From Periplaneta americana (Eukaryota > Arthropoda > Insecta > Blattodea > Blattidae): a stretch of 64,000 nt of DNA. Location of the stretch: contig NW_027185501.1 in the NCBI RefSeq assembly GCF_040183065.1, positions 1,018,001 to 1,082,000 on the forward strand, in the 5' to 3' direction. Below the pieces are notes generated by a model. The model had not been told where the DNA came from, made no database searches, and saw only the letters and a program-made list of their open reading frames with translations. The translations under genes and the position numbers were made by a program. Each line of letters starts with the position of its first letter. Position 1 is the stretch's first letter. Positions 1 through 64,000 of this stretch are shown here, piece by piece.

Positions 1-166
1 ACCTGAAATCTTGATTTGCATAATACACGTCACTGTTCGTTAACAGAAAACCACAATTTAAGTCACACGGAGTTTGTGTGCACTCGAAGTTGGATGCTTG
101 ACGGTTGTCAGCCCACTTTGAGGACTGTGGATATAGAGGATATATTGGATCGGTGTCGATTAGAGT

Positions 167-291
167 TCCCGAGTAGCTCAGTGGTAGAGCGTTGGTACGT
201 TAAACCAAAGGTCCCGGGATCGATACCCGACCACGTGGTAGAGCGTTGCTACGTTAAACCAAGGTCCCGGGTTCGATACCCGGCTCCGGAA
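167..291 (+). tRNA. Fused double tRNA-like core, type D1
   Basis: A near-complete first body, without its 3' acceptor strand, runs into a second body that starts at the D loop (ACGTGGTAGAGCG). The outer acceptor strands can still pair with each other. The first T loop is ATCGATA instead of TTCGATA. The second anticodon stem TTGCT/ACCAA has a C30-C40 mismatch. Upstream reads GGATATAGAGGATATATTGG. Confidence 0.72.
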
Positions 292-1074
292 CAATTTTTC
301 CCTCGAAATTATTCAAATCAACTTTACAGGGAGTTATACCTGAAATCTTGATTTGCATAATACACGTCACTGTTCGTTAACAGAAAACCACAATTTAAGT
401 CACACGGAGTTAGTGTGCACTGGAAGTTGGATATTTTACGGTTGTCAGGCCACTTTGAGGTCTGTGTATATAGAGGGAAAAATTGAATCGGTGTCGGTTA
501 GATTTCCCGAGTAGCTCAGTGGAAGAGCGTTGGAACGTTAAACCAAAGGTCCCGGGTTCGATACCCGGCTGCGGAACAATTTTTCCCTCGAAATTATTCA
601 AATCAGCTATACAGGGAGTTATACCTGAAATTTTGATTTGCATAAAATACGTCACTGTTCGTTAACAGAAAACCACAATTTAAGTCACACGGAGTTAGTG
701 TGCACTCGAAGTTGGATGCTTGACGGTTGTCAGCCCAATTTGAGTTCTGTGGATATAGAGGGAAGAATTGGATCGGTGTCGGTTAGAGTTTCCGGGTAGC
801 TCAGTGGTAGAGCGTTGGTACGTTAAACCAAAGGTCCCGGGTTCGATACCCGGCTCCGGAACAATTTTTCCCTCGAAATTATTCAAATCAACTTTACAGG
901 GAGTTATACCTGAAATCTTGATTTGCGTAATACACGTCACTGTTCGTTAACAGAAAACCACAATTTAAGTCACACGGAGTTAGTGTGCATTCGAAGTTGG
1001 ATGCTTGACGGTTGTCAGCCCACTTTGAGGTCTGTGGATACAGAGGGAAAAATTGGATTAGTGTCGGTTAGAGT

Positions 1075-1146
1075 TCCCGAGTAGCTCAGTGGTAGAGCGT
1101 TGGTACGTTAAACCAAAGGTCCCGGGTTCGATACCCGGCTCCGGAA
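1075..1146 (+). tRNA. Exact-consensus tRNA-like core
   Basis: Same cloverleaf as the reference core at 20576, with intact A box and B box. The following T run is intact (AACTATTTTTCCC). This unit has no counterpart in the homologous region 14850-16350, so it was gained here or lost there. Confidence 0.7.
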
Positions 1147-1929
1147 CTATTTTTCCCTCGAAATTATTCAAATCAACTTTACAGGGTTTTATACCTGAAA
1201 TCTTGATTTGCATAATACACGTCACTGTTCGTTAACAGAAAACCACAATTTAAGTCACACGGAGTTAGTGTGCATTCGAAGTTGGTTGCTTGACGGTTGT
1301 CAGCCCAATTTGAGGTCTGTGGATATAGAGAAAAAAATTGGATTGGTGTCGGTTAGAGTTCCCGAGTAGTTCAGTGGTAGAGCGTTGGTACGTTAAACCA
1401 AAGGTCCCTGGTTCGATACCCGGCTCCGGAAAAATTTTTCCCTCGAAATTATTCAAATCAACTTTTGAGGGAATTATACCTGAAATCTTGATTTGCATAA
1501 TACACGTCACTGTTCGTTAACAGAATACCACAATTTAAGTCACACGGAGTTAGTGTGCACTCGAAGTTGGATGCTTGACGGTTGTCAGCCCACTTTGAGG
1601 TCTGTGAATATATACGGAAAAATTGGATCGGTGACGGTTAGAGTTCCCGAGTAGGTCAGTGGTAGAACGTTGGATGTTAAACCAAAGGTCCCGGGTTCGA
1701 TAGCCAGCTCCGGAACAATTTTTCCCTCGAAATTATTCAAATCAACTTTACAGGGAGTTATACCTGAAATCTTGATTTGCACAATACACGTCACTGTTCG
1801 TTAACAGAAAACCACAATTTAAGTCAAACGGAGTTAGTGTGCACTCGAAGTTGAAAGCCTGACGGTTGTTAGCGCACTTTGAGGTCTGTGGATACAGAGG
1901 GAAAAATTTGGATAGGTGTCGGTTAGAGT

Positions 1930-2001: not shown

Positions 2002-2497
2002 AAATTTTCCCTCGAAATTATAAAAATCAACATTACAGGGAGTTATACCTGAAATCTTGTTTTGCATAATACACGTCACTGTTCGTAAACAGAAAACCAC
2101 AATTTAAGTCACACGGAGTTAGTGTGCACTCGAAGTTTGATGCTAGACGGTTGTCAGCCCACTTTGAGGTCTGTATATATAGGGGAAAAAATTGGATCGG
2201 TGTCGGTTAGAGTTCCCGAGTAGTATAGTGGTAGAGCGTTGGTACGTTAAACCAAAGGTCCCGGGTTCGATACCCGTCTCCGGAACAATTTTTCCCTCGA
2301 AATTTTTCAAATCAACTTTACAGGGAGTTATACCTGAAATCTTGTTTTGCATAATACACGTCTCTGTTCGTTAACAGAAAACCACAATTTAAGTCACACG
2401 GAGTTAGTGTGCACTCGAAGTTGGATGCTTGACGGTTGTCAGCTCACTTTGAGGTCTGTGGATGTAGAGGAAATATTGGATCGGTGTCGTTTAGAGT

Positions 2498-2623
2498 TCC
2501 CGAGTAGCTCAGAGGTAGAGCGTTGGTACGTTAAAACAAAGATCCCGGGATCGATACCCGGCCCCGTGGTAGAGCGTTGCTACGTTAAAGCAAAGGTTCC
2601 GGGTTCGATACCCGGCTCCGGAA
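2498..2623 (+). tRNA. Fused double tRNA-like core, type D2
   Basis: The first D loop is AGAGGTA and the first anticodon stem TTGGT/AACAA is mismatched. The junction is GGCCCCGTGGTAGAGCG. The second body has ACGTTAAAGC and GGTTCCGGG. The final B box is intact. Confidence 0.7.
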
Positions 2624-4546
2624 CAATTTTTCCCTCGAAATTATTCAAATCAACTTTACAGTTAGTTATACCTGAAATCTTGATTTGCATAATACACGTC
2701 ACTGTTCGTTAACAGAAAACCACAATTTAAGTCACACGTAGTTAGTGTGTTCTCGAAGTTGGATGCTTGACGGTTGTCAGACCACTTTGAGGTCTGTGGA
2801 TATAGAGGGAAAAATTGGTTCGGTGTCGGTTAGAGTTCCCGAGTAGCTCAGTGGCAGAGCGTTGGTACGTTAAACCAAAGGTCCCGGGTTCGATACCCGG
2901 CTTCGGAACAATTTTTCCCTCGAAATTATTCAAATCAACTTTACAGGGAATTATACCTGAAATCTTGATTTGCATAATACACGTCCCTGTTCGTTAACAG
3001 AAAACCACAATTTAAGTCACACGGATTTAGTGTGCACTCGAAGTTGGATGCTTGACGGTTGTCAGCCCACTTTGAGGTCTGTGGATATAGAGGGAAAAAT
3101 AGGATCGGTGTCGGTTAGAGTTCCCGAGTAGCTCAGTGGTAGAGCGTTGGTACGTTAAACCAAAGGTCCCGAGTTCGATACCCGGCTCCGGAACAATTTT
3201 TTCTTCGAAATGATTCAAATCAACATTACAGGGAGTTATACCTGAAATCTTGATTTGCATAATACACGTCACTGTTCGTTAACAGAAAACCACGATTTAA
3301 GTCACACGGAGTTAGTGTGCACTCGAAGTTGGATGCTTAACGGTTGTCAGCCCACTTTGAGGTCTGTGGATATAGAGGGAAAAATTGGATCGGTGTCGGT
3401 TAGAGTTCCCGAGTAGCACAGTGGTAGAGATTTGGTACGTTAAAGAAAAGGTCCCGGCTTCGATTCCCGGCTCCGGAACAATTATCACGTCGAAATTATT
3501 CAAATCATATTTAAAGGGAGTTATACCTGAAATCTTGATTCGCATAGTACACGTCACTGTTCGTTAACAGAAAATCACATGTTCAGTCACACGGAGTTAG
3601 TGTGCACTCGAAGTTGAATGCTTGACGGTTGTCAGCCCAATTTGAGGTCTGTGGATATAGAGGGAAAAATTGGATCGGTGTCGGTAAGAGTTCCCGAGTA
3701 GCTCAGTGGTAGAGCGTAGGTACGTTAAACCAAAAGTCCCGGGTTCGATACCCGGCTCCGGAAAAATTTTTCCCACGAAATTATTCAAATCATCTTTACA
3801 GGGAGTTATACTTGAAATCTTGATTTGCATAATACACGTCACTGTTCGTTAACAGAAAACCACAATTTAAGACACACGGAGTTAGTGTGCACTCGATGTT
3901 GGATGCTTGACGGTTGTCAGCCCAATTTGAGGTCTGTGGATATAGAGGGAAAAATTGGATCGGTGTCGGTTGGAGTTCACGAGTAGCTCAGTGGTAGAGC
4001 GTTGGTACGTTAAATCAAAGGTCCCGGGTTCGATATCCGGCTCCGGACAAATTTTTCCCACGAAATTATTCAAATCAACTTTACAGGGAGTTATAACTGA
4101 AATCTTAATTTGCATAATACACGTCACTGTTCGTTAACAGAATACCACAATTTAAGTCACACGGAGTTAGTGTGCACTCGATGTTGGATGCTTGACGGTT
4201 GTCAGCCCACTTTGAAATCTGTGGATATAGAGGGAAAAATTGGATCGGTGTCGGTTAGAGTTCTCGAGTAGCTCAGTGGTAGAGCGTTGGTACGTTACAC
4301 CAAAGGTCCCGGGTTCGATACCCGGCTCCGGAAAATTTATTCCCTCGAAATTATTCAAATCAACTTTACAGGGACTTATACCTGAAATCTTGATTTGCAT
4401 AATACACGTCACTGTTCGTTAACAGAAAACCACAATTTAAGTCACACGGATTTAGTGTGCACTTGAAGTTGGATGCTTGACGGTTGTCAGCCCACTTTGA
4501 GGTAAGTGGATATAGAGGGAAAAATTGGATCGGTGTGGGTTAGAGT

Positions 4547-4955: not shown

Positions 4956-7900
4956 CAATTTTTCCCTCAAAATTATTCAACTCAACTTTACAGTTAGTTA
5001 TACCTGAAATCTTGTTTTGCATAATACACGTCACTGTTCGTTAACAGAAAACCACAATTTAAGTCACAAATAGTTAGTGTGCTCTCGAAGTTTGATGCTT
5101 GACGGTTGTCAGCCCACTTTGAGGTCTGTGGATATAGAGGGAAAAAATTGGATAGGTGTAAGTTAGAGTTCCCGAGTAGCTCAGTGGTAGAGCGTTGGTA
5201 AGTTAAACCAAAGGTCCCGGGTTCGAAACCAGGCTCCGGAACAATTTTTCCCTCGTAATTATTCAAATCAACTTTACAGGGAGTCATACCTGATCTCTTG
5301 TTTTGCATAATACACGTCACTGTTCGTTAACAGAAAACCACAATTTAAGTCACACGGAGTTAGTGTGCACTCGAAGTTGGATGCTTGACGGTTGTGAGCC
5401 CCCTTTGAGGTCTGGGAATATAGAGGGAAAAATTGAATCGGTGTCGGTTAGGGTTCCCGAGTAGCTCAATGGTAGAGCGTTGGTATGTTAAACCAAAGTC
5501 CCGGGTTCGATACCCGGCTCCGGAACATTTTTTCCCTCGAATTTATTCAAATCAACTTTACAGGGAGTTATACCTGAAATCTTGATTTGCATAATACACG
5601 TCACTGTTCGTTAACAGAAAACCACAATTTAAGTCACACGGGTTTAGTGTGCACTCGAAGTTGGATGCTTGACGGTTGTCAGCCCAATTTGAGGTCTGTG
5701 GATATAGATTGAAACATTGGATCGGTGTCGGTTGGAGTTCCCGAGTAGCTCAGTGGTAGAGCGTTGGCACGTTAAACCAAAGGTCCCGGGTTCGATACCC
5801 GGCTCCGGAACAATTTTTCCCTCGAAATTATTCAAATCAACTTTACAGGGAGTTATACCTGAAATCTTGATTTGCATAATACACGTCACTGTTCGTTAAC
5901 AGAAAACAACAATTTAAGTCACACGGATTTAGTGTGCACTCGAAGTTAAATGTTTGACGGTTGTCAGCCCACTTTGAGGTCTGTGGATATAGAGGGAAAA
6001 ATTGGATCGGTGTCGGTTAGAGTTCCCGAGTAGCTCAGTGGTAGAGCGTTGGTACGTTAAACCAAAGGTCCCGGGTTCGATAACCGCCTCCGGAACAATT
6101 TTTCCCTCGAAATTATTCAAATCAACTTTACAGGGATTTATACCTGAAATCTTGATTTGCATAATACACGTCACTGTTCGTTAACAGAAAACCACAATTT
6201 AAGTCACACGGAGTTAGTGTGCACTCGAAGTTGGATGCTTGACGGTTGTCAGCACAATTTGAGGTCTGTGGATATAGAGGGAAAAATTGGATCGGTGTCG
6301 GTTAGAGTTCTCGAGTAGCTCAGTGGTAGAGCGTTTGTACGTTAATCCAAAGGTCCCGGGTTCGATACCCGGCTCCGGAAAATTTTTTCCCTCGAAATTA
6401 TTCAAATCAACTTTACAGGGACTTATACCTGAAATCTTGATTTGCATAATGCACGTCACTGTTCGTTAACAGAAAACCACAATTTAAGTCACACGGAGTT
6501 AGTGTGCACTCGAAGTTGGATGCTTCACGGTTGTCAGCCCACTTTGAGGTAAGTGGATATAGATGGAAAAATTGGATCGGTGTCGGTTAGAGTTCCCGAG
6601 TAGCTCAGTGGTAGAGCGTTGGTATGTTAAACCAAAGTCCCGGGTTCCATACTAGGCTCCCTAACAATTTTTCCCTCGAAATTATTCAAGTCAACTTTAC
6701 AGGGAGTTATACCTGAAATCTTGTTTTGCATAATACACGTCACTGTTCGTAAACAGAAAACCACAATTTAAGTCACACGGAGTTAGTGTGCACTCGAAGT
6801 TTGATGCTAGACGGTTGTCAGCCCACTTTGAGGTCTGTATATATAGGGGAAAAAATTGGATCGGTGTCGGTTAGAGTTCCCGAGTAGTATAGTGGTAGAG
6901 CGTTGGTACGTTAAACCAAAGGTCCCGGGTTCGATACCCGGCTCCGGAACAATTTTTCCCTCGAAATTATTCAAATCAACTTTACAGGGAGTTATACCTG
7001 AAATCTTGATTTGCATAATACACGTCACTGTTCGTTAACAGAAAACCACAATTTAAGTCACACGGATTTAGTGTGCACTCGAAGTTAAATGCTTGACGGT
7101 TGTCAGCCCACTTTGAGGTCTGTGGATATAGAGGGAAAAATTGGATCGGTGTCGGTTAGAGTTCCCGAGTAGCTCAGTGGTAGAGGGTTGGTAAGTTAAA
7201 CCAAAGTTCCCGGGTTCGATACCAGGATCCGGAACAATTTTTCCCTAAAAAAATTATTCAAATCAACTTTACAGGGAGTTATACCTGAAATCTTGGTTTG
7301 CATAATACACGTCACTGTTCGTTAACAGAAAACCACAATTTAAGTCACACGGAGATAGTATGCACTCGAAGTTGGATGCTTGACGGTTGTCAGCACAATT
7401 TGAGGTCTGTGGATATAGAGGGAAAAATTGGATCGGTGTCGGTTAGAGTTCTCGAGTAGCTCAGTGGTAGAGCGTTGGTACGTTAATCCAAAGGTCCCGG
7501 GTTCGATACCCGGCTCCGGAATATTTTTTCCCTCGAAATTATTCAAATCAACTTTACAGGGTCTTATACCTGAAATATTGATTTGCATAATACACGTCAC
7601 TGTTCGTTAACAGAAAACCACAATTTAAGTCACACGGAGATAGTGTGCACTCGAAGTTGGATGCTTGACGGTTGTCAGCGCACTTTGAGGTCTGTGGATA
7701 CAGAGGGAAAAATTGGATAGGTGTCGGTTAGAGTTCCCGATTAGCTCAGTGGTAGAGCGTTGGTACGTTAAACCAAAGGTCCCGTGTTCGATACCCGGCT
7801 CCGGAACAATTTTTCCCTCGAAATTATTCAAATCAACTTTACAGGGAGTTATACCTGAAATCTTGTTTTGCATAATACACGTCACTGTTCGTAAACAGAA

Positions 7901-8303
7901 AACCACAATTTAAGTCACACGGAGTTAGTGTGCACTCGAAGTTTGATGCTAGACGGTTGTCAGCCCACTTTGAGTTCTGTATATATAGGGGAAAAAATTG
8001 GATCGGTGTCGGTTAGAGTTCCCGAGTAGTATAGTGGTAGAGCGTCGGTACGTTAAACCAAAGGTCCCGGGTTCGATACCCGGCTCCGGAACAATTTTTC
8101 CCTCGAAATTATTCAAATAAACTTTACAGGGAATTATACCTGAAATCATGTTTTGCATAATACACGTCTCTGTTCGTTAACAGAAAACCACAATTTAAGT
8201 CACACGGAGTTAGTGTGCACTCGAAGTTGGATGCTTGACGGTTGTCAGCCCACTTTGAGGTCTGTGGATATAGAGGAAATATTGCATCGGTGTCGGTTAG
8301 ATT

Positions 8304-8429
8304 TCCCGAGTAGCTCAGAGGTAGAACGTTGGTACGTTAAAACAAAGGTCCCGGGATCGATACCCGGCCCCGTGGTAGAGCGTTGCTACGTTTAAGCAAA
8401 GGTCCCGGGTTCGATACACGGCTCCGGAA
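8304..8429 (+). tRNA. Fused double tRNA-like core, type D2
   Basis: It lies in repeat A copy 1. The first A box is TAGCTCAGAGG, followed by AGAACG. The second T arm reads CCGGG-TTCGATA-CACGG, mismatched at 52-62. The T run is broken (AACAATTTATCCC). Confidence 0.68.
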
Positions 8430-9212
8430 CAATTTATCCCTCGAAATTATTCAAATCAACTATACAGTTAGTTATACCTGAAATCTTGATTTGCATAATA
8501 CACGTCACTGTTCGTTAACAGAAAACCACAATTTAAGTCACACGTAGTTAGTGTGCTCTCGAAGTTGAATGCTTGACGGTTGTCAGCCCACTTTGAGGTC
8601 TGTGAATATAGAGGGAAAAATTGGATCGGTGTCGGTTAGAGTTCCCGAGTAGCTCAGTGGTAGAGCGTTGGTAAGTTAAACCAAAGGTCCCGGGTTCGAT
8701 ACCAGGATCCGGAACAATTTTTCCCTCGAAATTATTCAAATCAACTTTACAGGGAGTTATACCTGAAATCTTGATTTGCATAATACACGTCACTGTTCGT
8801 TAACAGAAAACCACAATTTAAGTCACACGGAGTTAGTGTGCACTCGAAGTTGGATGTTTGACGGTTGTCAGCCCACTTTGAGGTCTGTGGATATAGAGGG
8901 AAAAATTGGATCGGTGTCGGTTAGAGTTCCCGAGTAGCACAGTGGTAGAGCTTTGGTACGTTAAAGCAAAGGTCCCGGGTTCGATTCCCGGCTCCGGAAC
9001 AATTATCAAGTCGAAATTATTCAAATCAAATTTAAAGGGAGTTATACCTGAAATCTTGATTTGCATAGTACACGTCACTGTTCGTTAACAGAAAACCACA
9101 ATTTAAGTCACACGGAGTTAGTGTGCAGTCGATGTTGGATGCTTGACGGTTGTCAGCCCAATTTGAGGTCTGTGGATATAGAGGGAATAATTGGATCGGT
9201 TTTGGTTAGAGT

Positions 9213-9282
9213 TCCCGAGTAGTCAGAGGTAAAGGGTTGGACGTTAAACCAAAGGTCCTGGGTTCGATACCCAGCTCCGGAA
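9213..9282 (+). tRNA. Degraded tRNA-like core with compensated T-stem pair 50-64
   Basis: The T arm is CTGGG-TTCGATA-CCCAG: both members of pair 50-64 changed, C-G to T-A. The D arm has lost a base (TAGTCAGAGGTAAAGGG) and one base is missing in the anticodon arm (TTGGACGTTAAACC), giving 70 nt. The A box is impaired. Confidence 0.5.
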
Positions 9283-10920
9283 CAATTTTTCCCTCGAAAT
9301 TATTCAAATCAACTTTACAGAGAGTTATACCTGAAATCTTGATTTGCATAATACACGTCACTGTTCGTTAACAGAAAACCACAATTTAAGTCACACGGAG
9401 TTAGTGTGCACTCGAAGTAGAAAGCTTGACGGTTGTCAGCCCGCTTTGAGTTCTGTGGATATAGAGGGAAAAATTGGATCGGTGTCGGTAACAGTTCCCG
9501 AGTAGCTCAGTGGTAGAGTTTTGGTACGTTAAACCAAAGGTCCCGGGTTCGATACCCGGCTCCGGAACAATTTTTCTCTCGAAATTATTCAAATCAACTT
9601 TACAGGGAGTTATACCTGAAATTTTGAATTGCATAATACACGTCACTGTTCGTTAACAGAAAACCACAATTTAAGTCACACTGGTTTAGTGTGCACTCGA
9701 AGTTGGATGCTTGACGGTTGTCAGCCCAATTTGAGGTCTGTGGATATAGATTCAAACATTGGATCGGTGTCGGTTGGAGTCCCCGAGTAGCTCAGTGGTA
9801 GGGAGTTGGTACGTTAAACCAAAGGTCCCGGGTTCGATACCCGGCTCCGGAACAATTTTTCCCTCGAAATTATTCAAATCAACTTTACAGGGAGTTATAC
9901 CTGAAATCTTGATTTGCATAATACACGTCACTGTTCATTAACAGAAAACCACAATTTAAGTCACACGGATTTAGTGTGCACTCGAAGTTAAATGCTTGAC
10001 GGTTGTCAGCCCACTTTGAGTTCTGTGGAAATAGAGGGAAAAATTGGATCGGTGTCAGTTAGAGTTCCCGAGTAGCTCAGTGGTAGAGCGTTGTTACGTT
10101 AAACCAAAGGTCCCGGGTTCGATAACCGGCTCCGGAACAATTTTTCCCTCGAAATTATTCAAAACCAACTTTACAGGGAGTTATACCTGAAATCTTGATT
10201 TGCATAATACACGTCACTGTTCGTTAACAGAAAACCACAATTTAAGTCACACGGAGTTAGTGTGCACTGGAAGTTGGGTATTTTACGGTTGTCAGCCCAC
10301 TTTGAGGTCTGTGTATATAGAGGGAAAAATTGAATCTGTGTCGGTTAGATTTCCCGAGTAGCTCAGTGGAAGAGCGTTGGAACGTTAAACCAAAGGTCCC
10401 GGGTTCGATATCCGGCTCCGGAACAATTTTTCCCTCGAAATTATTCAAATCAACTTTACAGGGATTTATACCTGAAATCTTGATTTGCATAATACACGTC
10501 ACTGTTCGTTAACAGAAAACCACAATTTAAGTCACACGGAGTTAGTGTGCACTCGAAGTTGGATGCTTGACGGTTGTCAGCCCACTTTGAGGTCTGTGGA
10601 TATAGAGGGAAAAATTGGATCGGTGTCGGTGAGAGTTCCCGAGTAGCTCAGTGGTAGATCGTTGGTACGTTAAACCAAAGGTCCCGGGTTCGATACCCGG
10701 CTCCGGAACAATATATCCCTCGAAATTATTCAAATCAACTTTACAGGGAGTTATACCTGAAATCTTGATTTGCATAATACACGTCACTGTTCGTTAACAG
10801 AAAACCACAATTTAAGTCACACGGAGTTTGTGTGCACTCGAAGTTGGATGCTTGACGGTTGTCAGCCCACTTTGAGGACTGTGGATATAGAGGATATATT
10901 GGATCGCTGTCGATTAGAGT

Positions 10921-11045
10921 TCCCGAGTAGCTCAGTGGTAGAGCGTTGGTACGTTAAACCAAAGGTCCCGGGATCGATACCCGACCACGTGGTAGAGCGT
11001 TGCTACGTTAAACCAAGGTCCCGGGTTCGATACCCGGCTCCGGAA
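10921..11045 (+). tRNA. Fused double tRNA-like core, type D1
   Basis: Same organisation as 167. It differs just upstream by GGATCGCTGTCG. The preceding unit (10637) lacks a T5, so a transcript starting there could include three tRNA-like bodies before the T5 after 11045. Confidence 0.72.
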
Positions 11046-12396
11046 CAATTTTTCCCTCGAAATTATTCAAATCAACTTTACAGGGAGTTATACCTGAAAT
11101 CTTGATTTGCATAATACACGTCACTGTTCGTTAACAGAAAACCACAATTTAAGTCACACGGAGTTAGTGTGCACTGGAAGTTGGATATTTTACGGTTGTC
11201 AGGCCACTTTGAGGTCTGTGTATATAGAGGGAAAAATTGAATCGGTGTCGGTTAGATTTCCCGAGTAGCACAGTGGAAGAGCGTTGGAACGTTAAACCAA
11301 AGGTCCCGGGTTCGATACCCGGCTGCGGAACAATTTTTCCCTCGAAATTATTCAAATCAGCTATACAGGGAGTTATACCTGAAATTTTGATTTGCATAAA
11401 ATACGTCACTGTTCGTTAACAGAAAACCACAATTTAAGTCACACGGAGTTAGTGTGCACTCGAAGTTGGATGCTTGACGGTTGTCAGCCCAATTTGAGTT
11501 CTGTGGATATAGAGGGAAGAATTGGATCGGTGTCGGTTAGAGTTTCCGAGTAGCTCAGTGGTAGAGCGTTGGTACGTTAAACCAAAGGTCCCGGGTTCGA
11601 TACCCGGCTCCGGAACTATTTTTCCCTCGAAATTATTCAAATCAACTTTACAGGGTTTTATACCTGAAATCTTGATTTGCATAATACACGTCACTGTTCG
11701 TTAACAGAAAACCACAATTTAAGTCACACGGAGTTAGTGTGCATTCGAAGTTGGTTGCTTGTCGGTTGTCAGCCCACTTTGAGGTCTGTGGATATAGAGA
11801 AAAAAAATGGATTGGTGTCGGTTAGAGTTCCCGAGTAGTTCAGTGGTAGAGCGTTGGTACGTTAAACCAAAGGTCCCTGGTTCGATACCCGGCTCCGGAA
11901 AAATTTTTCCCTCGAAATTATTCAAATCAACTTTAGAGGGAGTTATACCTGAAATCTTGATTTGCATAATACACGTCACTGTTCGTTAACAGAATACCAC
12001 AATTTAAGTCACACGGAGTTAGTGTGCACTCGAAGTTGGATGCTTGACGGTTGTCAGCCCACTTTGAGGTCTGTGAATATATACGGAAAAATTGGATCGG
12101 TGTCGGTTAGAGTTCCCGAGTAGGTCAGTGGTAGAACGTCGGATGTTAAACCAAAGGTCCCGGGTTCGATAGCCAGCTCCGGAACAATTTTTCCCTCGAA
12201 ATTATTCAAATCATCTTTACAGGGATTTATACCTGAAATCTTGATTTGCACAATACACGTCACTGTTCGTTAACAGAAAACCACAATTTAAGTCACACGG
12301 AGTTAGTGTGCACTCGAAGTTGGATGCTTGACGGTTGTCAGCCCACTTTGAGGTCTGTGGATATAGAGGAAATATTGCATCGGTGTCGGTTAGATT

Positions 12397-12522
12397 TCCC
12401 GAGTAGCTCAGAGGTAGAACGTTGGTACGTTAAAACAAAGGTCCCGGGATCGATACCCGGCCCCGTGGTAGAGCGTTGCTACGTTTAAGCAAAGGTCCCG
12501 GGTTCGATACACGGCTCCGGAA
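12397..12522 (+). tRNA. Fused double tRNA-like core, type D2
   Basis: Repeat A copy 2 partner of 8304 with the same defects, including the broken T run. Confidence 0.68.
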
Positions 12523-13305
12523 CAATTTATCCCTCGAAATTATTCAAATCAACTATACAGTTAGTTATACCTGAAATCTTGATTTGCATAATACACGTCA
12601 CTGTTCGTTAACAGAAAACCACAATTTAAGTCACACGTAGTTAGTGTGCTCTCGAAGTTGAATGCTTGACGGTTGTCAGCCCACTTTGAGGTCTGTGAAT
12701 ATAGAGGGAAAAATTGGATCGGTGTCGGTTAGAGTTCCCGAGTAGCTCAGTGGTAGAGCGTTGGTAAGTTAAACCAAAGGTCCCGGGTTCGATACCAGGA
12801 TCCGGAACAATTTTTCCCTCGAAATTATTCAAATCAACTTTACAGGGAGTTATACCTGAAATCTTGATTTGCATAATACACGTCACTGTTCGTTAACAGA
12901 AAACCACAATTTAAGTCACACGGAGTTAGTGTGCACTCGAAGTTGGATGTTTGACGGTTGTCAGCCCACTTTGAGGTCTGTGGATATAGAGGGAAAAATT
13001 GGATCGGTGTCGGTTAGAGTTCCCGAGTAGCACAGTGGTAGAGCTTTGGTACGTTAAAGCAAAGGTCCCGGGTTCGATTCCCGGCTCCGGAACAATTATC
13101 AAGTCGAAATTATTCAAATCAAATTTAAAGGGAGTTATACCTGAAATCTTGATTTGCATAGTACACGTCACTGTTCGTTAACAGAAAACCACAATTTAAG
13201 TCACACGGAGTTAGTGTGCAGTCGATGTTGGATGCTTGACGGTTGTCAGCCCAATTTGAGGTCTGTGGATATAGAGGGAATAATTGGATCGGTTTTGGTT
13301 AGAGT

Positions 13306-20593: not shown

Positions 20594-20625
20594 TAGAGCG
20601 TTGGTACGTTAAACCAAAGGTCCCG

Positions 20626-20636: not shown

Positions 20637-20650
20637 CGGCTCCGGAATAA

Positions 20651-50318: not shown

Positions 50319-50864
50319 TTATTGTGCACTTGAAGGTGGATGCTTGACTGTTGTCAGCCCAATTTGAGGTCTGTGGATATAGAGGGAAAAATTGGATCGG
50401 TGTCGGTTAGAGTTCCCGAATAGCTCAGTGGTAGAGCGTTGGTACGTTACACCAAAGGTCCCGGGTTCGATAACCGCCTCCGGAACAATTTTTGCCTCGA
50501 AATTATTCAAATCAACTTTATAGGGAGTTATACCTGAAATCGAGATTTGCATAATACACGTCACTGTTCGTTAACAGAAAACCACAATTTAAGTCACACG
50601 GAGTTAGTGTGCACTTGATGTTGGATGCCTGACGGTTGTCACCCCAATTTGAGATCTGTGGATATAGAGGGAAAAATTGGATCTGTGTCGGTTAGAGTTC
50701 CCGAGTAGCTCAGTGGTAGAGCGTTGGTACGTTAAACCAAAAGTCCCGGGTTCGATATCCGCCTCCGGAACAATTTTTCCCTCGAAATTATTGAAATCAA
50801 CTTTACAGGGAGTTATACCTGAAATCTTGATTTGCATAATACACGTCACTGTTCGTTAACAGAA

Positions 50865-51036
50865 TACTTACTTACTTACAAATGGCTTTTAAGGAACCCG
50901 AAGGTTCATTGCCGCCCTCACATAAGCCCGCCAGCGGTCCCTATCCTGTGCAAGATTAATCCAGTCTCTATCATCATATCCCACCTCCCTCAAATCCATT
51001 TTAATATTATCCTCCCATCTACGTCTCGGCCTCCCC
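50865..51036 (-). mobile_element. 5'-truncated non-LTR retrotransposon (LINE) 3' end
   Basis: About 173 bp of foreign DNA splits the spacer between cores 50699 and 51157. On the minus strand it reads as an open frame to a stop, a short 3' UTR, and then a tail GTAAGTAAGTAAGTA. A microsatellite-like tail together with 5' truncation is typical of LINE insertion; I recall tails of this kind in RTE-type elements. The left flank ends CAGAA and the right resumes AAACCACAATTTAAG, so no target bases were lost. No target-site duplication longer than one or two A can be seen. It is the only non-array DNA in the window and is inserted antisense to the tRNA-like cores. Family placement is inference. Confidence 0.85.
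50889..51035 (-). pseudogene. Reverse transcriptase C-terminal fragment (48 codons)
   Basis: Translating the minus strand gives 48 uninterrupted codons and a TAA stop. The peptide begins GRPRRRWEDNIKMDLREVG and later contains DWINLAQDRDRW and AAMNLRVP at the end. From memory this arginine- and tryptophan-rich stretch is the region downstream of the RT domain at the C terminus of many arthropod LINE ORF2-type proteins. There is no start codon, RT catalytic motif or endonuclease domain, so it is a dead 5'-truncated fragment. The frame has no stop or frameshift, which suggests a fairly young insertion. The exact LINE clade cannot be settled without a database search. Confidence 0.8.
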
Positions 51037-53148: not shown

Positions 53149-53274
53149 TCCCGAGTAGCTCAGGGGTAGAGCGTTGGTACGTTAAACCAAAGGTCCCGGG
53201 TTCGACACCCGGCCCCGTGGTAGTGCGTTGCTACGTTAAACCAAAGGTCCCGGGTTCGATACCCGGCTCCGGAA
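53149..53274 (+). tRNA. Fused double tRNA-like core, type D6, both B boxes close to consensus
   Basis: The first T loop is TTCGACA (GGTTCGACACC), so this is the only double unit in which both B boxes match GGTTCGANNCC. The first D loop is AGGGGTA. It is followed by GGAAGAATTTTT. Confidence 0.71.
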
Positions 53275-54339
53275 GAATTTTTCCCTCGAAATTATTCAAA
53301 TCAACTTTACAGTTAGTTATACCCGAAATCTTGATTTGCATAATACACGTCTCTGTTCGTTAACAGAAAACCACAATTTAAGTCACACGGAGTTGGTGTG
53401 CACTCGAAGTTGGATGGTTGACGGTTGTCAGCCCACTTTGAGGTCTGTGGATATAGAGGGAAAAATTGGATCGGTGTCGGTTAGAGTTCCCGAGTAGCTC
53501 AGTGCTAGAGCGTTGGTAAGTTAAACCGAAGGTCCCGTGTTCGATACCCGCTCCGGAACAATTTTTCCCTCGAAATTATTCAAATCAACTTTACAGGGAG
53601 TTATACCTGAAGTCTTGATTTGCATAATACACGTTACTGTTCGTTACCAGAAAACCACAATTTTATCACACGGAGTTAGTGTGCACTCGAAGTTGGATGC
53701 TTGACGGTTGTCAGCCCAATTCGAGGTCTGTGGATACAGAGGGAAAAATTGGAACGGTGTCGGTTAGAGTTCCCGGGTAGCTCAGTGGTAGAGCGTTGGT
53801 ACGTTAAACCAAAGGTCCCGGTTTCGATACCCGGCTCCGGAACAATTTTTCCCTCGAAATTATTCAAATCAACTTTACAGGGTTTTATATCTGAAATCTT
53901 GATTTGCATAATACACGTCACTGTTCGTTAACAGAAAACCACAATTTAAGTCACACGGAGTTAGTGTGCACTCGAAGTTGGATGCTTGACGGTTGTCAGC
54001 CCACTTTGAGGTCTGTGGATATAGAGGGAAAAATTGCATCGGTGTCGGTTAGAGTTCCCGAATAGCTCAGTGGTAGAGCGTTGGTACGTTAAACCAAAGG
54101 TCCCGGGTTCGATAACCGCCTCCGGAACAATTTTTCCCTCGAAATTATTCAAATCAACTTTATAGGGTGTTATACCTGAAATCGAGATTTGTATAATGCA
54201 CGTCACTGTTCGTTAACAGAAAACCACAATTTAAGTCACACGGAGTTAGTGTGCACTCGAAGTTGAATGCTTGACGATTGTCAGCCCACTTTGAGGTCTG
54301 TGGATATAGAGGAAATATTGGATCTGTGTCGGTTAGAGT

Positions 54340-54466
54340 TCCCGTGTAGCTCAGGGGTAGAGCGTTGGTACGTTAAACCAAAAGTCTCGGGATCGACACC
54401 CGGCCCCGTGGTAGTGCGTTGCTACGTTAAACCAAAAGGTCCCGGGTTCGATACCCGGCTCCGGAA
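54340..54466 (+). tRNA. Fused double tRNA-like core, type D6
   Basis: The acceptor strand is TCCCGTG, the first T arm is TCTCGGGATCG, and the second variable region has one extra A (CCAAAAGG). Confidence 0.68.
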
Positions 54467-56102
54467 CAATTTTTCCCTCGAAATTATTCAAATCAACTTT
54501 ACAGTTAGTTATTCCCGAAATCTTGATTTGCATAATACACGTCACTGTTCGTTAACAGAAAACCACAATTTAAGTCACACGGAGTTAGTGTGCACTCTAA
54601 TTTGGATGCTTCACGGTTGTCAGCCCACTTTGAGCTCTGTGGATATAGAGGGAAAAATTGGATCGGTGTCGGTTAGAGTTCCCGAGTAGCTCAGTGGTAG
54701 AGCGTAGGTACGTTAAACCAAATGTCCCGGGTACGATACCCGGCTCCGGAACAATTTTTCCCACGAAATTATTCAAATCAGCTTTACAGGGAGTTAAACC
54801 TGAAATCATGATTTGCATAATACACGTCACTGTTCGTTAACAGACAACCACAATTTAAGTCACACGGAGTTAGTGTGCACTCGATGTTGGATGCTTGACT
54901 GTTGTCAGCCCAATTTGAGGTCTGTGGATATAGAGGGAAAAATTGGATCGGTGTCGTTTAGAGTTCCCGAGTAGCTCAGTGGTAGAACGCTGGTACGTTA
55001 AACCAAAGGTCCCGGGTTCGATACCCGGCTCCGGAACAATTTTTCCCTCGAAATTATTAAAGTCATCTTTACAGGCAGTTATATCTGAAATCTTGATTTG
55101 CATAATACACGTCACTTTTCGTTAACAGAAAACCACAATTTAAGTCACACGGAGTTAGTGTGCACTCGAAGTTGGATGCTTGACGGTTGTCAGCCCACTT
55201 TGATGTCTGTGGATATAGAGGGAAGAATTGGATCGGCGTCGGTTAGAGTTCCCGAGTAGCTCAGTGGTAGGCCGTTGGTACGTTAAACCAAAGGCCCTGG
55301 GTTCGATACCCGGCCACGGAACAATTTTTCCCTCGAAATTATTCAAATCAACTTTACAGGGAGTTATAACTGAAATCTTGTTTTGCATAATACACGTTAC
55401 TGTTCGTTAACAGAAAACCACAATTTAATTCACACGGAGTTAGTGTGCACTCGAAGTTGGATGCTTGACGGTTGTCAGCCCACTTCGAGTTCTATGGATA
55501 CAGAGGGAAAAATTGGATCGGTGTCGGTTAGAGTTCCCGAGTAGCTCAGTGGTAGAGCGTTGGTACGTTAAACCAAAGGTCCCGGGTTCGATACTTGGCT
55601 CCGGAAAAATTTTTCCCTCGAAATTATTCAAATCAACTTTACAGGGAGTTATACCTGAAATCTTGATTTGCGTAATACACGTCACTGTTCGTTAACAGAA
55701 AACCACAATTTAAGTCACACGGAGTTAGTGTGCACTCGAAGTTGGATGCTTGACGGTTGTCAGCCCAAATTGAGGTCTGTGGATATAGAGGGAAAAATTG
55801 GATCGGTGAGGTTAGAGTTCCCGAGTAGCTCAGTGATAGAGGGTTGGTACGTTAAACCAAATGTCCCGGGTTCAATACCCGGCTCCGGAACAATTTTTTC
55901 CTCGAAATTATTCAAATCAACTTTATAGGGAATTATACCTGAAATCTTGATTTGCATAATACACGTCACTGTTCGTTAACAGAAAACCACAATTTAAGTC
56001 ACACGGAGTTGGTGTGCACTCGAAGTTGGATGCTTGACGGTTGTCAGCCCACTTTGAAGTCTGTGGATATAGAGGAAATATTGGATATGTGTCGGTTAGA
56101 GT

Positions 56103-56227
56103 TCCCGAGTAGCTCAGGGGTAGAGCGTTGGTACGTTAAACCAAAGGTCCCGGGATCGACACCCGGCCCATGGTAGTGCGTTGCTACGTTAAACCAAAGG
56201 TCCCGGGTTCGATACCCGGCTCCGGAA
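56103..56227 (+). tRNA. Fused double tRNA-like core, type D6
   Basis: The junction is shortened to GGCCCATGGTAGTGCG, giving 125 nt. The second body has a consensus T arm and T5. Confidence 0.68.
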
Positions 56228-56440
56228 CAATTTTTCCCTCGAAATTATTCAAATCAACTTTACAGTTAGTTATACCCGAAATCTTGATTTGCATAATACA
56301 CGTCACTGTTCGTTAACAGAAAACCACAATTTAAGTCACACGGAGTTAGTGTGCACTCGAATTTGGATGCTTCACGGTTGTCAGCCCACTTTGAGCTCTG
56401 TGGATATAGAGGGAAAAATTGGATCGGTGTCGGTTAGAGT

Positions 56441-56512
56441 TCCCGAGTAGCTCAGTGGTAGAGCGTTGGTACGTTAAACCAAAGGTCCCGGGTTCGATAC
56501 CCGGCTCCGGAA
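56441..56512 (+). tRNA. Exact-consensus tRNA-like core
   Basis: Consensus core in repeat E, with T5 after AATAA. It belongs to the unit type marked by GATGCTTCACGG and GAGCTCTGTGG upstream. Confidence 0.7.
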
Positions 56513-58148
56513 TAATTTTTCCCTCGAAATTATTCAAATCAACTTTACAGGGATTTATACCTGAAATCTTGATTTGCATAATACACGTCACTGTTCGTTA
56601 ACAGAAAACCATAATTTAAGTCACACGGAATTAGTGTGCACTCGAAGTTGGATGCTTGTCGGTTGTCAGCCCACTTTGATGTCTGTGGATATAGAGGGAA
56701 AAATTGGATCGGTGTCGGTTAGAGTTCCCGAGTAGCTCAGTGGTAGAGCGTTGGTACGTTAAACCAAATGTCCCGGGTACGATACCCGGCTCCGGAACAA
56801 TTTTTCCCACGAAATTATTCAAATCAGCTATACAGGGAGTTATACCTGAAATCTTGATTTGCATAATACACGTCACTGTTCGTTAACAGAAAACCACAAT
56901 TTAAGTCACACGGAGTTAGTGTGAACTCGAAGTTGGATGCTTGACGGTTGTCAGCCCACTTCGAGTTCTGTGGATACACAGGGAAAAATTGGATCGGTGT
57001 CGGTTAGAGTTCCCGAGTAGCTCAGTGGTAGAGCGTTGGTACGTTAAACCAAAGGTCCCGGGTTCGATATTCGGCTCCGGAAAAATTTTTCCCTCGAAAT
57101 TATTCAAATCAACTTTACAGGGAGTTATATCTGAAATCTTGATTTGCATAATACACGTCACTGTTCGTTAACAGAAAACCACAATTTAAGTCACACGGAG
57201 TTAGTGTGCACTCGAAGTTGGATGCTTGACTGTTGTCAGCCCAATTTGAGGTCTGTGGATATAGAGGGAAAAATTGGATCGGTGTCGGTTAGAGTTCCCG
57301 ACTAGCTCAGTGGTAGAGCGTTGGTATGTTAAACGAAAAGTCCCGAGTTCGATACCAGGCTCAGGAACAATTTTTCCCTCGAAATTATCAAATCAACTTT
57401 ACAGGGAGTTATACCTGAAATCTTGATTAGCATAATACACGTCACTGTTCGTTAACAGAAAACCACAATTTAAGTCACACGGAGCTAGTGTGCACTCGAA
57501 GTTGAATGCTTGACTGTTGTCAGCCCAATTTGAGGTCTGTGGATAAAGAGGGAAAAATTGGATCTGTGTCGGTTAGAGTTCCCGAATAGCTCAGTGGTAG
57601 AGCGTTGGTACGTTAAACCAAAGGTCCCGGGTTCGATAACCGCCTCCTTAACAATTTTTGCCTCGAAATTATTCAAATCAACTTTATAGGGAGTTATACC
57701 AGAAATCGAGATTTGCATAATACACGTCACTGTTCGTTAACAGAAAACCACAATTTAAGTCACACGGAGTTAGTGTGCACACGAAGTTGGATGCTTGACG
57801 GTTGTCAGCCATATTTGAGGTCTGTGGATATAGAAGGAAAAATTGGATCGGTGTCGGTTAGAGTTCCCGAGTAGCTCAGTGGTAGAGCGTTGGTCCGTTA
57901 AACCAAAGGTCCCGGCTTCGATACCCGGCTCCGGAACAATTTTTCCCTCGAAATTATTCAAATCAACTTTACGGGGAGTTATACCTAAAATCTTGATTTG
58001 CATAATACACGTCACTGTTCGTTAACAGAAAACCACAATTTAAGTCACACGGATTTAGTGTGCACTCGAAGTTGAATGCTTGACGATTGTCAGCCCACTT
58101 TGAGGTCTGTGGATATAGAGGAAATATTGGATCTGTGTCGGTTAGATT

Positions 58149-58274
58149 TCCCGAGTAGCTCAGGGGTAGAGCGTTGGTACGTTAAACCAAAGGTCCCGGG
58201 ATCGACACCCGGCCCCGTGGTAGTGCGTTGCTACGTTAAACCAAAGGTCCCGGGTTCGATACCCGGCTCCGGAA
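58149..58274 (+). tRNA. Fused double tRNA-like core, type D6
   Basis: Upstream GTTAGATTTCCCG weakens the extended acceptor pairing. The first T arm is CGGGATCGACACCCGG. The final B box and T5 are intact. Confidence 0.68.
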
Positions 58275-59902
58275 CAATTTTTCCCTCGAAATTATTCAAA
58301 TCAGCTTTACAGTTAGTTATTCCCGAAATCTTGATTTGCATAATACACGTCACTGTTCGTTAACAGAAAACCACAATTTAAGTCACACGGAGTTAGTGTG
58401 CACTCGAATTTGGATGCTTCACGGTTGTCAGCCCACTTTGAGCTCTGTGGATATAGAGGGAAAAATTGGATCGGTGTCGGTTAGAGTTCCCGAGTAGCTC
58501 AGTGGTAGAGCGTAGGTACGTTAAACCAAATGTCCCGGGTACGATACCCGGCTCCGGAACAATTTTTCCCACGAAATTATTCAAATCAGCTTTACAGGGA
58601 GTTAAACCTGAAATCATGATTTGCATAATACACGTCACTGTTCGTTAACAGACAACCACAATTTAAGTCACACGGAGTTAGTGTGCACTCGATGTTGGAT
58701 GCTTGACGGTTGTCAGCCCAATTTGAGGTCTGTGGATATAGAGGGAAAAATTGGATCGGTGTCGTTTAGAGTTCCCGAGTAGCTCAGTGGTAGAACGCTG
58801 GTACGTTAAACCAAAGGTCCCGGGTTCGATACCCGGCTCCGGAACAATTTTTCCCTCGAAATTATTAAAATTATCTTTACAGGGAGTTATAACTGAAATC
58901 TTGATTTGCATAATGCACGTCACTTTTCGTTAACAGAAAACCACAATTTAAGTCACACGGAGTTAGTCAGCACTCGAAGTTGGATGCTTGACGGTTGTCA
59001 GACCACTTTGATATCTGTGGATATAGAGGGAAAAATTGGATCGGCGTCGGTTAGAGTTCCCGAGTAGCTCTGTGGTAGGCCGTTGGTACGTTAAAACAAA
59101 GGCCCTGGGTTCGATACCCGGCCACGGAACAATTTTTCCCTCGAAATTATTCAAATCAACTTTACAGGGAGTTATAACTGAAATCTTGATTTGCATAATA
59201 CACGTTACTGTTCGTTAACAGAAAACCACAATTTAATTCACACGGAGTTAGTGTGCACTCGAAGTTGGATGCTTGACGGTTGTCAGCCCACTTCGAGTTC
59301 TATGGATACAGAGGGAAAAATTGGATCGGTGTCGGTTAGAGTTCCCGAGTAGCTCAGTGGTAGAGCGTTGGTACGTTAAACCAAAGGTCCCGGGTTCGAT
59401 AACCGCCTCCGGAACAATTTTTCAATCGAAATTATTCAAATCAACTTTACAGGGATTTATACCTGAAATCTTGATTTGCATAATACACGTCACTGTTCTT
59501 TAACAGTAAACCACAATTAAAGTCACACGGAGTTAGTGTGCACTCGAAGTTGGATGCTTGACGATTGTCAGCCCACTTTGAGGTCTGTGGATATAGAGGG
59601 AAAAATTGGAACGGTGTCGGTTAGAGTTCCCGAGTAGCTCAGTGGTAGAGCGTTGGTACGTTAAACCAAAGGTCCCGTGTTCGATACCCGGCTCAGGAAC
59701 AATTTTTTCCAAGAAATTATTAAAATCAACTTTACAGGGAGTTATACATGAAATCTTGATACACGTCACTGTCGTTAACAGAAAACCACAATTTAAATCA
59801 CACGGAATTAGTGTGCACTCGAAGTTGGATGCTTCACGGTTGTCAGCCCACTTTGAGCTCTGTGGATATAGAGGGAAATATTGGATCGGTGTCGGTTAGA
59901 GT

Positions 59903-59974
59903 TCCCGAGTAGCTCAGTGGTAGAGCGTTGGTACGTTAAACCAAAGGTCCCGGGTTCGATACCCGGCTCCGGAA
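59903..59974 (+). tRNA. Exact-consensus tRNA-like core
   Basis: Consensus core with T5. Its upstream spacer is chimeric: the left part, with CTGTCGTTAACAG and AAATCACACGGAATTAG, comes from a 22328-like unit. The right part, from GATGCTTCACGG, is from the 56441 type. Confidence 0.7.
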
Positions 59975-62181
59975 TAATTTTTCCCTCGAAATTATTCAAA
60001 TCAACTTTACAGGGAGTTATACCTGAAGTCTTGATTTGCATAATACACGTCACTGTTCGTTAACAGAAAACCATAATTTAAGTCACACGGAGTTAGTGTG
60101 CGCTCGAAGTTGGATGCTTGTCGGTTGTCAGCCCACTTTGAGGTCTGTGGATATAGAGGGAAAAATTGGATCCGTGTCGGTTAGAGTTCCCGAGTAGCTC
60201 AGTGGTAGAGCGTTGGTACGTTAAACCAAATGTCCCGGGTACGATACCCGGCTCCGGAACAATTTTTCCCACGAAATTATTCAAATCAGCTATACAGGGA
60301 GTTATACCTGAAATCTTGATTTGCATAATACACGTCACTGTTCGTTAACAGACAACCACAATTTAAGTCACACGGAGTTAGTGTGCACTCGATGTTGGAT
60401 GCTTGACGGTTGTCAGCCCAATTTGAGGTCTGTGGATATAGAGGGAAAAATTGGATCGGTGTCGGTTAGAGTTCCCGAGTAGCTCAGTGGTAGAGCGCTG
60501 GTACGTTAAACCAAAGGTCCCGTGTTCTATACCCGGCTCCGGAACAATTTTTCCCTCGAAATTATTCAAATCAACTTTACAGGCAGTTATATCTGAAATC
60601 TTGATTTGCATAATACACGTCACTTTTCGTTAACAGAAAACCACAATTTATGTCACACGGAGTTAGTGTGCACTCGAAGTTGGATGCTTGACGGTTGTCA
60701 GCCCACTTTGAGGTCTGTGGATATAGAGGGAAAAATTGGATCTGCGTCGGTTAGAGTTCCCGAGTAGCTCAGTGGTAGGGCGTTGGTACGTTAAACCAAT
60801 GGCCCTGGGTTCGATACCCGGCCACGGAACAATTTTTCCCTCGAAATTATTCAAATCAACTTTACAGGGAGTTATACTTGAAATCTTGATTTCCATAATA
60901 CACGTTACTGTTCGTTAACAGAAAACCACAATTTAAGTCACACGGAGTTAGTGTGCACTCGAAGTTGGAAGCTTGACGGTTGTCAGCCCACTTCGAGTTC
61001 TGTGGATACTGAGGGAAAAATTGGATCGGTGTCGGTTAGAGTTCCCGAGTAGCACAGTGGTAGAGCGTTGGTACGTTAAACCAAAGGTCCCGTGTTCGAT
61101 ACTCGGCTCCGGAAAAATTTTTCCCTCGAAATTATTCAAATCAACTTTACAGGGAGTTATACCTGAAATCTTGATTTGCATAATACACGTCACTGTTCGT
61201 TAACAGAAAACTACAATTTAAGTCACACGGAGTTAGTGTGCACTCGAAGTTGGATGCTTGACGGTTGTCAGCCCAATTTGAGGTCTGTGGATATAAAGGG
61301 AAAAATTGGATCGGTGTCGGTTAGAGTTCCCGAGTAGCTCAGTGGTAGAGCATTATTACGTTAAACCAAAGGTCCCGGGTTCAATACCCGGCTCCGGAAC
61401 AATTTTTCCCTCGAAATTATTCAAATCAACTTTACAGGGAGTTATATCTGAAATCTTGATTTGCATAATACACGTCACTGTTCGTTAACAGAAAACCACA
61501 ATTTAAGTCACACGGAGTTAGTGTGCACTCGAAGTTGGATGCTTGACGGTTGTCAGCCCACTTTGAGGTCTGTGGATATAGAGGGAAAAATTGGATCGGT
61601 GTCGGTTAGAGTTCCCGAATAGCTCAGTGGTAGAGCGTTGGTACGTTAAACCAAAAGTCCCGGGTTCGATAACCGCCTCCGGAACAATTTTTCCCTCGAA
61701 ATTATTCAAATCAACTTTATAGGGAGTTATACCTGAAATCGAGATTTGCATAATACACGTCACTGTTCGTTAACAGAAAACCACAATTTAAGTCACACGG
61801 AGTTAGTGTGCACACGAAGTTTGATGCTTGACGGTTGTCAGCCCAATTTGAGGTCTGTGGATATAGAGGGAAAAATTGGATCGGTGTCGGTTAGAGTTCC
61901 CGAGTAGCTCAGTGGTAGAGCGTTGGTCCGTTAAACCAAAGGTCCCGGCTTCGATACCCGGCTCCGGAACAATTTTTCCCTCGAAATTATTCAAATCAAC
62001 TTTATAGGGTGTTATACCTGAAATCGAGATTTGTATAATGCACGTCACTGTTCGTTAACAGAAAACCACAATTTAAGTCACACGGAGTTAGTGTGCACTC
62101 GAAGTTGAATGCTTGACGATTGTCAGCCCACTTTGAGGTCTGTGGATATAGAGGAAATATTGGATCTGTGTCGGTTAGAGT

Positions 62182-62308
62182 TCCCGAGTAGCTCAGGGGT
62201 AGAGCGTTGGTACGTTAAACCAAAAGTCCCGGGATCGACACCCGGCCCCGTGGTAGTGCGTTGCTACGTTAAACCAAAACGTCCCGGGTTCGATACCCGG
62301 CTCCGGAA
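62182..62308 (+). tRNA. Fused double tRNA-like core, type D6
   Basis: Repeat E copy 2 partner of 54340. The acceptor is consensus (TCCCGAG) and the second variable region reads CCAAAACG. Confidence 0.68.
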
Positions 62309-63944
62309 CAATTTTTCCCTCGAAATTATTCAAATCAACTTTACAGTTAGTTATTCCCGAAATCTTGATTTGCATAATACACGTCACTTTTCGTTAACAG
62401 AAAACCACAATTTAAGTCACACGGAGTTAGTGTGCACTCTAATTTGGATGCTTCACGGTTGTCAGCCCACTTTGAGCTCTGTGGATATAGAGGGAAAAAT
62501 TGGATCGGTGTCGGTTAGAGTTCCCGAGTAGCTCAGTGGTAGAGCGTAGGTACGTTAAACCAAATGTCCCGGGTACGATACCCGGCTCCGGAACAATTTT
62601 TCCCACGAAATTATTCAAATCAGCTTTACAGGGAGTTAAACCTGAAATCATGATTTGCATAATACACGTCACTGTTCGTTAACAGACAACCACAATTTAA
62701 GTCACACGGAGTTAGTGTGCACTCGATGTTGGATGCTTGACTGTTGTCAGCCCAATTTGAGGTCTGTGGATATAGAGGGAAAAATTGGATCGGTGTCGTT
62801 TAGAGTTCCCGAGTAGCTCAGTGGTAGAACGCTGGTACGTTAAACCAAAGGTCCCGGGTTCGATACCCGGCTCCGGAACAATTTTTCCCTCGAAATTATT
62901 AAAGTCATCTTTACAGGCAGTTATATCTGAAATCTTGATTTGCATAATACACGTCACTTTTCGTTAACAGAAAACCACAATTTAAGTCACACGGAGTTAG
63001 TGTGCACTCGAAGTTGGATGCTTGACGGTTGTCAGCCCACTTTGATGTCTGTGGATATAGAGGGAAGAATTGGATCGGCGTCGGTTAGAGTTCCCGAGTA
63101 GCTCAGTGGTAGGCCGTTGGTACGTTAAACCAAAGGCCCTGGGTTCGATAACCGGCCACGGAACAATTTTTCCCTCGAAATTATTCAAATCAACTTTACA
63201 GGGAGTTATAACTGAAATCTTGTTTTGCATAATACACGTTACTGTTCGTTAACAGAAAACCACAATTTAATTCACACGGAGTTAGTGTGCACTCGAAGTT
63301 GGATGCTTGACGGTTGTCAGCCCACTTCGAGTTCTATGGATACAGAGGGAAAAATTGGATCGGTGTCGGTTAGAGTTCCCGAGTAGCTCAGTGGTAGAGC
63401 GTTGGTACGTTAAACCAAAGGTCCCGGGTTCGATACTTGGCTCCGGAAAAATTTTTCCCTCGAAATTATTCAAATCAACTTTACAGGGAGTTATACCTGA
63501 AATCTTGATTTGCGTAATACACGTCACTGTTCGTTAACAGAAAACCACAATTTAAGTCACACGGAGTTAGTGTGCACTCGAAGTTGGATGCTTGACGGTT
63601 GTCAGCCCAAATTGAGGTCTGTGGATATAGAGGGAAAAATTGGATCGGTGAGGTTAGAGTTCCCGAGTAGCTCAGTGATAGAGGGTTGGTACGTTAAACC
63701 AAATGTCCCGGGTTCAATACCCGGCTCCGGAACAATTTTTTCCTCGAAATTATTCAAATCAACTTTATAGGGAATTATACCTGAAATCTTGATTTGCATA
63801 ATACACGTCACTGTTCGTTAACAGAAAACCACAATTTAAGTCACACGGAGTTGGTGTGCACTCGAAGTTGGATGCTTGACGGTTGTCAGCCCACTTTGAA
63901 GTCTGTGGATATAGAGGAAATATTGGATATGTGTCGGTTAGAGT

Positions 63945-64000
63945 TCCCGAGTAGCTCAGGGGTAGAGCGTTGGTACGTTAAACCAAAGGTCCCGGGATCG
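63945..64000 (+). tRNA. Fused double tRNA-like core, truncated by the window end
   Basis: It matches 56103 at offset 7842 bp up to the final base, GGTCCCGGGATCG. The second half lies outside the window. Confidence 0.65.

Follow-up and report, generated by a model that had tools for sequence, protein, structure and literature searches.

Satellites with tRNA-like units in tandem are already known as a kind. In maize, the tRNA (transfer RNA) satellite tRNASAT_ZM, or tRNAsat, forms an array of 91.95 kb on chr4L (PMC10335936), and the amphibian families Cynops PolIII/TAN, Xenopus OAX, Rana/polIII and Hydromantes Hy/polIII are described as tandem units of about 360 nt, longer, 250 nt and 200 nt, respectively; at least the first three contain a tRNA-like part, and PolIII/TAN is transcribable in vitro (PMC10702118). 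Genes for tRNA also stand in regular tandem repeats in Entamoeba (PMC2652664), in Hydractinia (PMC11067881), at human 1q23.3 (PMC4041453) and in the Arabidopsis SYY cluster (PMC12308677), and higher-order repeats are on record for insect satellites (grasshoppers; PMC7754599). Here we analyse one window of 64,000 nucleotides of the cockroach Periplaneta americana (RefSeq assembly GCF_040183065.1, contig NW_027185501.1, forward-strand positions 1,018,001 to 1,082,000), to which our analysis of the contig is confined. The entire 64 kb is a single head-to-tail array of a 285-bp unit that carries a tRNA-like body, and we read it, with a probability of about 0.78, as a tRNA-derived satellite of P. 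americana that has been passively amplified and spread by block-wise exchange, with some units perhaps transcribable. The array adds one to the tandem tRNA-like satellites listed above.

The maize satellite shares with this array its length, its tandem order and the tRNA in its name; it differs in being from a plant, it is likened here by description and not by unit sequence, and higher-order repeats go unmentioned in the part of its account on which we draw (PMC10335936). The amphibian families are vertebrate, and, as described, Rana/polIII is 64% tRNA-like over 64 nt and Hy/polIII is without a B box (PMC10702118), whereas scores against the Rfam tRNA model reach 64.3 bits among the cockroach units. 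The literature presents the Entamoeba, Hydractinia, human and Arabidopsis arrays as tRNA genes, with several kinds often sharing one unit, whereas the cockroach bodies look like pseudogenes. The 5S ribosomal DNA arrays of pike, termed potentially functional, likewise combine a tandem unit of the RNA polymerase III (Pol III) type with higher-order organisation; there, however, the gene is less diverse than the spacer (nucleotide diversity, pi, 0.0145 vs 0.0508; PMC5437419), whereas in the cockroach array the gene-like part and the spacer are equally diverse. The initial annotation of the window, made from its sequence, had called such a satellite unusual, which is fair, although the kind is not new, given the maize and amphibian precedents. 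No insect tRNA satellite is named in the titles or abstract openings of the papers listed by literature searches on tRNA and insect satellites, in which subscription journals are sparsely covered, and unit stretches searched as words in papers gave no match relevant by title. Patterns of the tRNA core and the spacer had 0 matches in bacterial/archaeal and viral contig collections, which is weak evidence because the patterns were exact and the collections are of bacteria, archaea and viruses. The array is a clear example of how a tRNA gene has become a higher-order-repeat satellite, in an insect.

A unit model run with nhmmer gave 245 matches on the + strand that leave uncovered only one interruption and, elsewhere, a few bases at a time. 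These matches include 24 partial tRNA bodies and, as two separate matches, both halves of one interrupted unit, so that the array comprises 220 units and 244 bodies, units 1 and 220, both truncated by the window ends, being included; on the minus strand there were 12 weak matches (13.1 to 17.0 bits), each lying over + strand units. Because both window ends fall within a unit, the array very likely continues past them. Successive unit starts (n = 217) were spaced by 283 to 287 bp in 189 cases, by 275 to 276 bp in 4 and by 337 to 339 bp in 23, and the single stretch of 742 bp consists of a whole unit and the interrupted unit. In the consensus unit the tRNA-like body occupies positions 207 to 278 and is followed by CAA and then by a T5 tract that enters the next unit, the remainder (about 210 bp) being spacer; the plain units (n = 193) comprise 157 distinct sequences with a mean pairwise difference of 7.0%. 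These counts agree with the initial annotation, which had given 220 units, about 245 bodies, orientation on one strand and one small interruption, the last being a single 169-bp block (50868-51036).

The tRNA homology of the unit is beyond chance. Rfam RF00005 gave 201 matches that reached the gathering score (best E = 1.2e-11), all on the + strand among the 150 of the 201 that were listed, and ARAGORN called 133 genes (128 Asn-GTT, 4 Tyr-GTA and 1 undetermined; 0/133 on the minus strand) but none in any of 10 dinucleotide-preserving shuffles, a control that applies to ARAGORN and not to the covariance model. The tRNA-like core proposed in the initial annotation was therefore recovered, and the comparison with shuffled sequence that had been named beforehand as able to refute it did not do so. 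A search of two units (869-1438) for other Rfam RNAs, at E up to 5, returned five non-tRNA matches, all far under their gathering scores. In single-RNA folding, the best fold of the consensus body is not the cloverleaf (z = -1.55), that of a body with U33 (5455-5526) is (z = -2.39), and a third body has z = -1.89; two spacer pieces reach z = -2.32 and -1.26, so that fold energy fails to distinguish the body.

Homologous as they are to tRNA, the bodies look like pseudogenes and not like working Asn tRNA. U33 is a near-invariant base in tRNA, and eukaryotic Asn tRNA has G73. The consensus body has canonical arms and the anticodon GTT, yet it carries C33, a C4:C69 mismatch and A73, which recur in 166, 177 and 190 of the 193 plain units, respectively. 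Position 4-69 is paired in none of these units, and accordingly none combines U33 with a paired 4-69; on average 2.6 of 21 pairs are broken per unit, with 4-69 included.

Drift is as unrestrained in the tRNA part as in the spacer, with no detectable constraint, and the number of copies is sufficient here for testing selection on the gene part. Among the 193 plain units, raw pi was 0.0799 in the tRNA part vs 0.0625 in the spacer; the body has a greater content of G and C, and G/C sites vary more in this array. When the units were collapsed to 69 types, pi was 0.0946 (tRNA) vs 0.1021 (spacer) at GC sites and 0.0538 vs 0.0488 at AT sites, and the composition-matched tRNA/spacer divergence ratio of 1.09 (95% site bootstrap, 0.83-1.40) gives no sign of a gene more conserved than its spacer. 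Changes in the stems disrupt pairs as often as neutrality predicts: pairing survives in 16 of the 79 distinct stem variants, where the mutation spectrum of the spacer predicts 14.8 +/- 3.1, and, counted as unit-by-pair cells, 276 disruptive single changes stand beside 16 compensated double changes. As for the mutations themselves, there was no excess of the kind that CpG methylation leaves (C>T at CpG, 23/1035 vs 72/2898 elsewhere; G>A, 16/1035 vs 65/3795), and the 410 distinct unit variants comprise 136 transitions and 274 transversions, a ratio of 0.50 that equals the value without bias. Variants common to more than 10 units also lack a transition excess (20 transitions vs 28 transversions), so that sequencing errors alone are not the cause. 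A similar missing transition bias was reportedly seen in a study of grasshopper pseudogenes.

Units resemble their counterparts one block away more closely than they resemble the adjoining units. The closest copy of a unit was the neighbouring one in 0/216 units and lay 13 to 15 units off in 83/216; the mean difference is 1.4% between nearest copies (n = 216 units) and 7.2% between adjacent plain units (168 pairs). In the four higher-order domains (Table 1) shared 41-mers most commonly lie 4,093, 3,754, 2,900 and 7,842 bp apart; between 18 and 28.4 kb the lag of a single unit (285) leads, slightly ahead of 4,598. With its 220 monomers head to tail on one strand over 64 kb, the array is a satellite with higher-order repeats, and the initial description of a single-type tRNA-derived satellite so organised holds. 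We infer that block-wise unequal exchange or amplification is at work, as such a pattern would be expected from it. The four Tyr-GTA bodies called by ARAGORN (31019-31091, 34773-34845, 38527-38599 and 42621-42693, in units 105, 118, 131 and 145) probably represent one inherited anticodon change, because they lie 13, 13 and 14 units apart, like the higher-order copies.

Several observations weigh against a passively drifting satellite. The anticodon GTT is retained in 189/193 plain units, and loops are less variable than stems (pi 0.051 vs 0.101), a contrast that among the 69 types has P = 0.007 overall and P = 0.37 at G/C sites alone. When the Pol III signals were scored in 217 stretches (one holding two units) by strict A-box and B-box patterns and by a T tract of at least four after the body as terminator, an A box was present in 167 and a terminator in 203, so that units may be transcribed; a strict B box was found in 123, and all three signals in 75. 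Units with all three, about one third, may bind TFIIIC or give rise to low-level transcripts, but not to working tRNAs. Were the array an enlarged group of functional tRNA-Asn(GUU) genes, comparable to the Entamoeba arrays or the Arabidopsis SYY cluster, the retained anticodon and the 128 Asn-GTT calls of ARAGORN would be explained; we rejected this reading on account of C33, the acceptor mismatch, the broken pairs and the missing constraint, and consider it scarcely credible. The same signals could instead belong to a Pol III/TFIIIC chromatin platform (insulator, boundary or pericentromere) that is maintained and whose functional part is the boxes and not the tRNA. The B box is the main TFIIIC site, and it would be expected to be held constant in such a platform, but among the 69 types its pi is 0.1004 (0.1466 at its 6 G/C sites) vs 0.0771 in the whole core, itself without constraint, and 0.0703 in the spacer, and its strict form occurs in just over half of the stretches. 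We find this platform improbable, even though A boxes and T tracts are frequent, pi at the 6 G/C sites of the A box is only 0.0517, and a human tRNA tandem repeat has been implicated as a boundary via a CTCF motif (PMC4041453). Of the three functional readings offered in the initial annotation, "simply a selfish satellite" is the best fit; a maintained Pol III/TFIIIC domain and a source of defined tRNA-like RNAs are unsupported, because under either one the promoter boxes or the fold should be constrained and the core shows no constraint. The CENP-B box core pattern is absent from the consensus unit.

Other explanations concern the origin of the array, its reality and the part of the unit that might be selected. 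A satellite grown from a tandemly amplified short interspersed nuclear element (SINE) could have a source in the tRNA-headed SINEs of Blattella (PMC9191728) and Periplaneta (PMC12774602) and a parallel in the SINE-derived satellites of reptiles (PMC10702118), but is unlikely in view of the T5 tract that follows the tRNA body and CAA in the consensus unit, at which a transcript would probably stop, without a SINE body. False expansion of a short array during assembly could produce higher-order copies as similar as those seen, whose identity reaches 98.55% over 8.7 kb; it is hard to reconcile with 157 distinct sequences in 193 plain units, 85 unit types at 3% among 216 units, four domains of differing period and one unique insert, and we regard it as very improbable. 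Finally, the least variable 72-bp stretch of the unit lies in the spacer, beginning at unit position 54 (P = 0.003 when sites are permuted within base classes; P = 0.005 for 40-bp and P = 0.03 for 20-bp windows, the three widths being uncorrected and sites being treated as independent). It is a lead only, because gene conversion would violate the assumed independence of sites. Overlapping its edge, at unit positions 53 to 60, is the octamer ATTTGCAT, which is present in 163/193 plain units, occurs 184 times in the window (e.g., at 351-358) and corresponds to an Oct-type site of some vertebrate snRNA-type (small nuclear RNA) promoters; its presence may be due to chance. A chromosomal platform whose selected part is a spacer element (unit positions about 54 to 125, overlapping ATTTGCAT), with decayed tRNA promoters giving only diffuse TFIIIC binding, is a long shot, though if true it would mean an insect satellite that was seeded by a tRNA gene and whose function later moved to the spacer.

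For the passively amplified tRNA-derived satellite that we favour, the 285-bp unit would have arisen from a tRNA gene or tRNA-like element together with about 210 bp of other sequence, and unequal exchange, or some amplification process like it, would have enlarged and homogenised the array in blocks of about 3 to 8 kb (10 to 28 units). The array would now persist passively and is probably silenced.

Table 1. Features of the cockroach array, in coordinates of the 64-kb window
Feature	Position	Strand	Evidence
Whole array, 220 units of 285 bp	1..64000	+	nhmmer; two rows of period 285 (235-62250; 62250-64000) from Tandem Repeats Finder (TRF)
Standard unit, example: spacer, tRNA-like body, start of T tract	869..1153	+	nhmmer model 1-285, 356.2 bits
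tRNA-like body of standard unit, 72 nt, identical to consensus; anticodon GTT, C33, C4:C69 mismatch, A73	1075..1146	+	RF00005, 60.7 bits; consensus and site counts
Higher-order domain, period about 4.09 kb (14 units)	6892..16559	+	6892-12465 vs 10989-16559, 98.1% over 5578 bp; commonest lag 4093 in 0-18 kb
Higher-order domain, period about 3.75 kb (13 units)	28417..40871	+	28417-37117 vs 32172-40871, 98.55% over 8705 bp; commonest lag 3754 in 28.4-41 kb
Higher-order domain, period about 2.90 kb (10 units)	42350..50864	+	42350-47962 vs 45249-50864, 97.4% over 5617 bp; commonest lag 2900 in 41-53 kb
Higher-order domain, period about 7.84 kb	53217..64000	+	53217-56158 vs 61057-64000, 98.0% over 2944 bp; commonest lag 7842 in 53-64 kb
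Extended unit, example of 24 (337-339 bp when whole): 53-54 bp internal duplication, D loop to 3' acceptor strand, giving a second partial body	2293..2630	+	TRF period 53-54; shared junction
169-bp interruption: coding end of a repeat, then TAAG-type tail	50868..51036	-	sequence; open frame and stop; protein relatives

Arrays of this type also carry a warning for annotation, as a gene finder yields 133 tRNA genes within 64 kb. The RefSeq annotation of P. americana counts 4,974 tRNAs (PMC12774602). Arrays like the present one may contribute to such counts. A total of that size is above the usual animal count, and tRNA satellites or SINEs could explain the excess.

The interruption is foreign to the unit and, read on its own strand, consists of an open frame running to a stop and then the tail. 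Of the 8000 candidates scored in a protein search with its peptide, 7920 had E <= 0.001, and among the 120 matches listed the nine relatives with a named organism were all from Periplaneta americana (86-100% identity, 82-98% query coverage). This supports a dispersed repeat of P. americana, and it also supports the earlier guess that the DNA came from an arthropod. Pfam gave 0 families for the insert peptide and no match reaching the cut-off for four relatives; from the look of such insect ends, we take the insert to be the putative 3' end of a non-LTR (long terminal repeat) retrotransposon.

Two further variants of the unit differ in length. The 24 extended units, 23 of them whole and the other being the first, cut unit, share an identical junction of the 3' acceptor strand to the D loop (24/24, point differences aside), the simplest reading of which is one duplication that then spread along the 64 kb. 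Four units are short by about 10 bp (275-276 bp; near 19523-19798, 22134-22406, 26447-26719 and 59709-59981) and offer a further variant useful for tracing block exchange.

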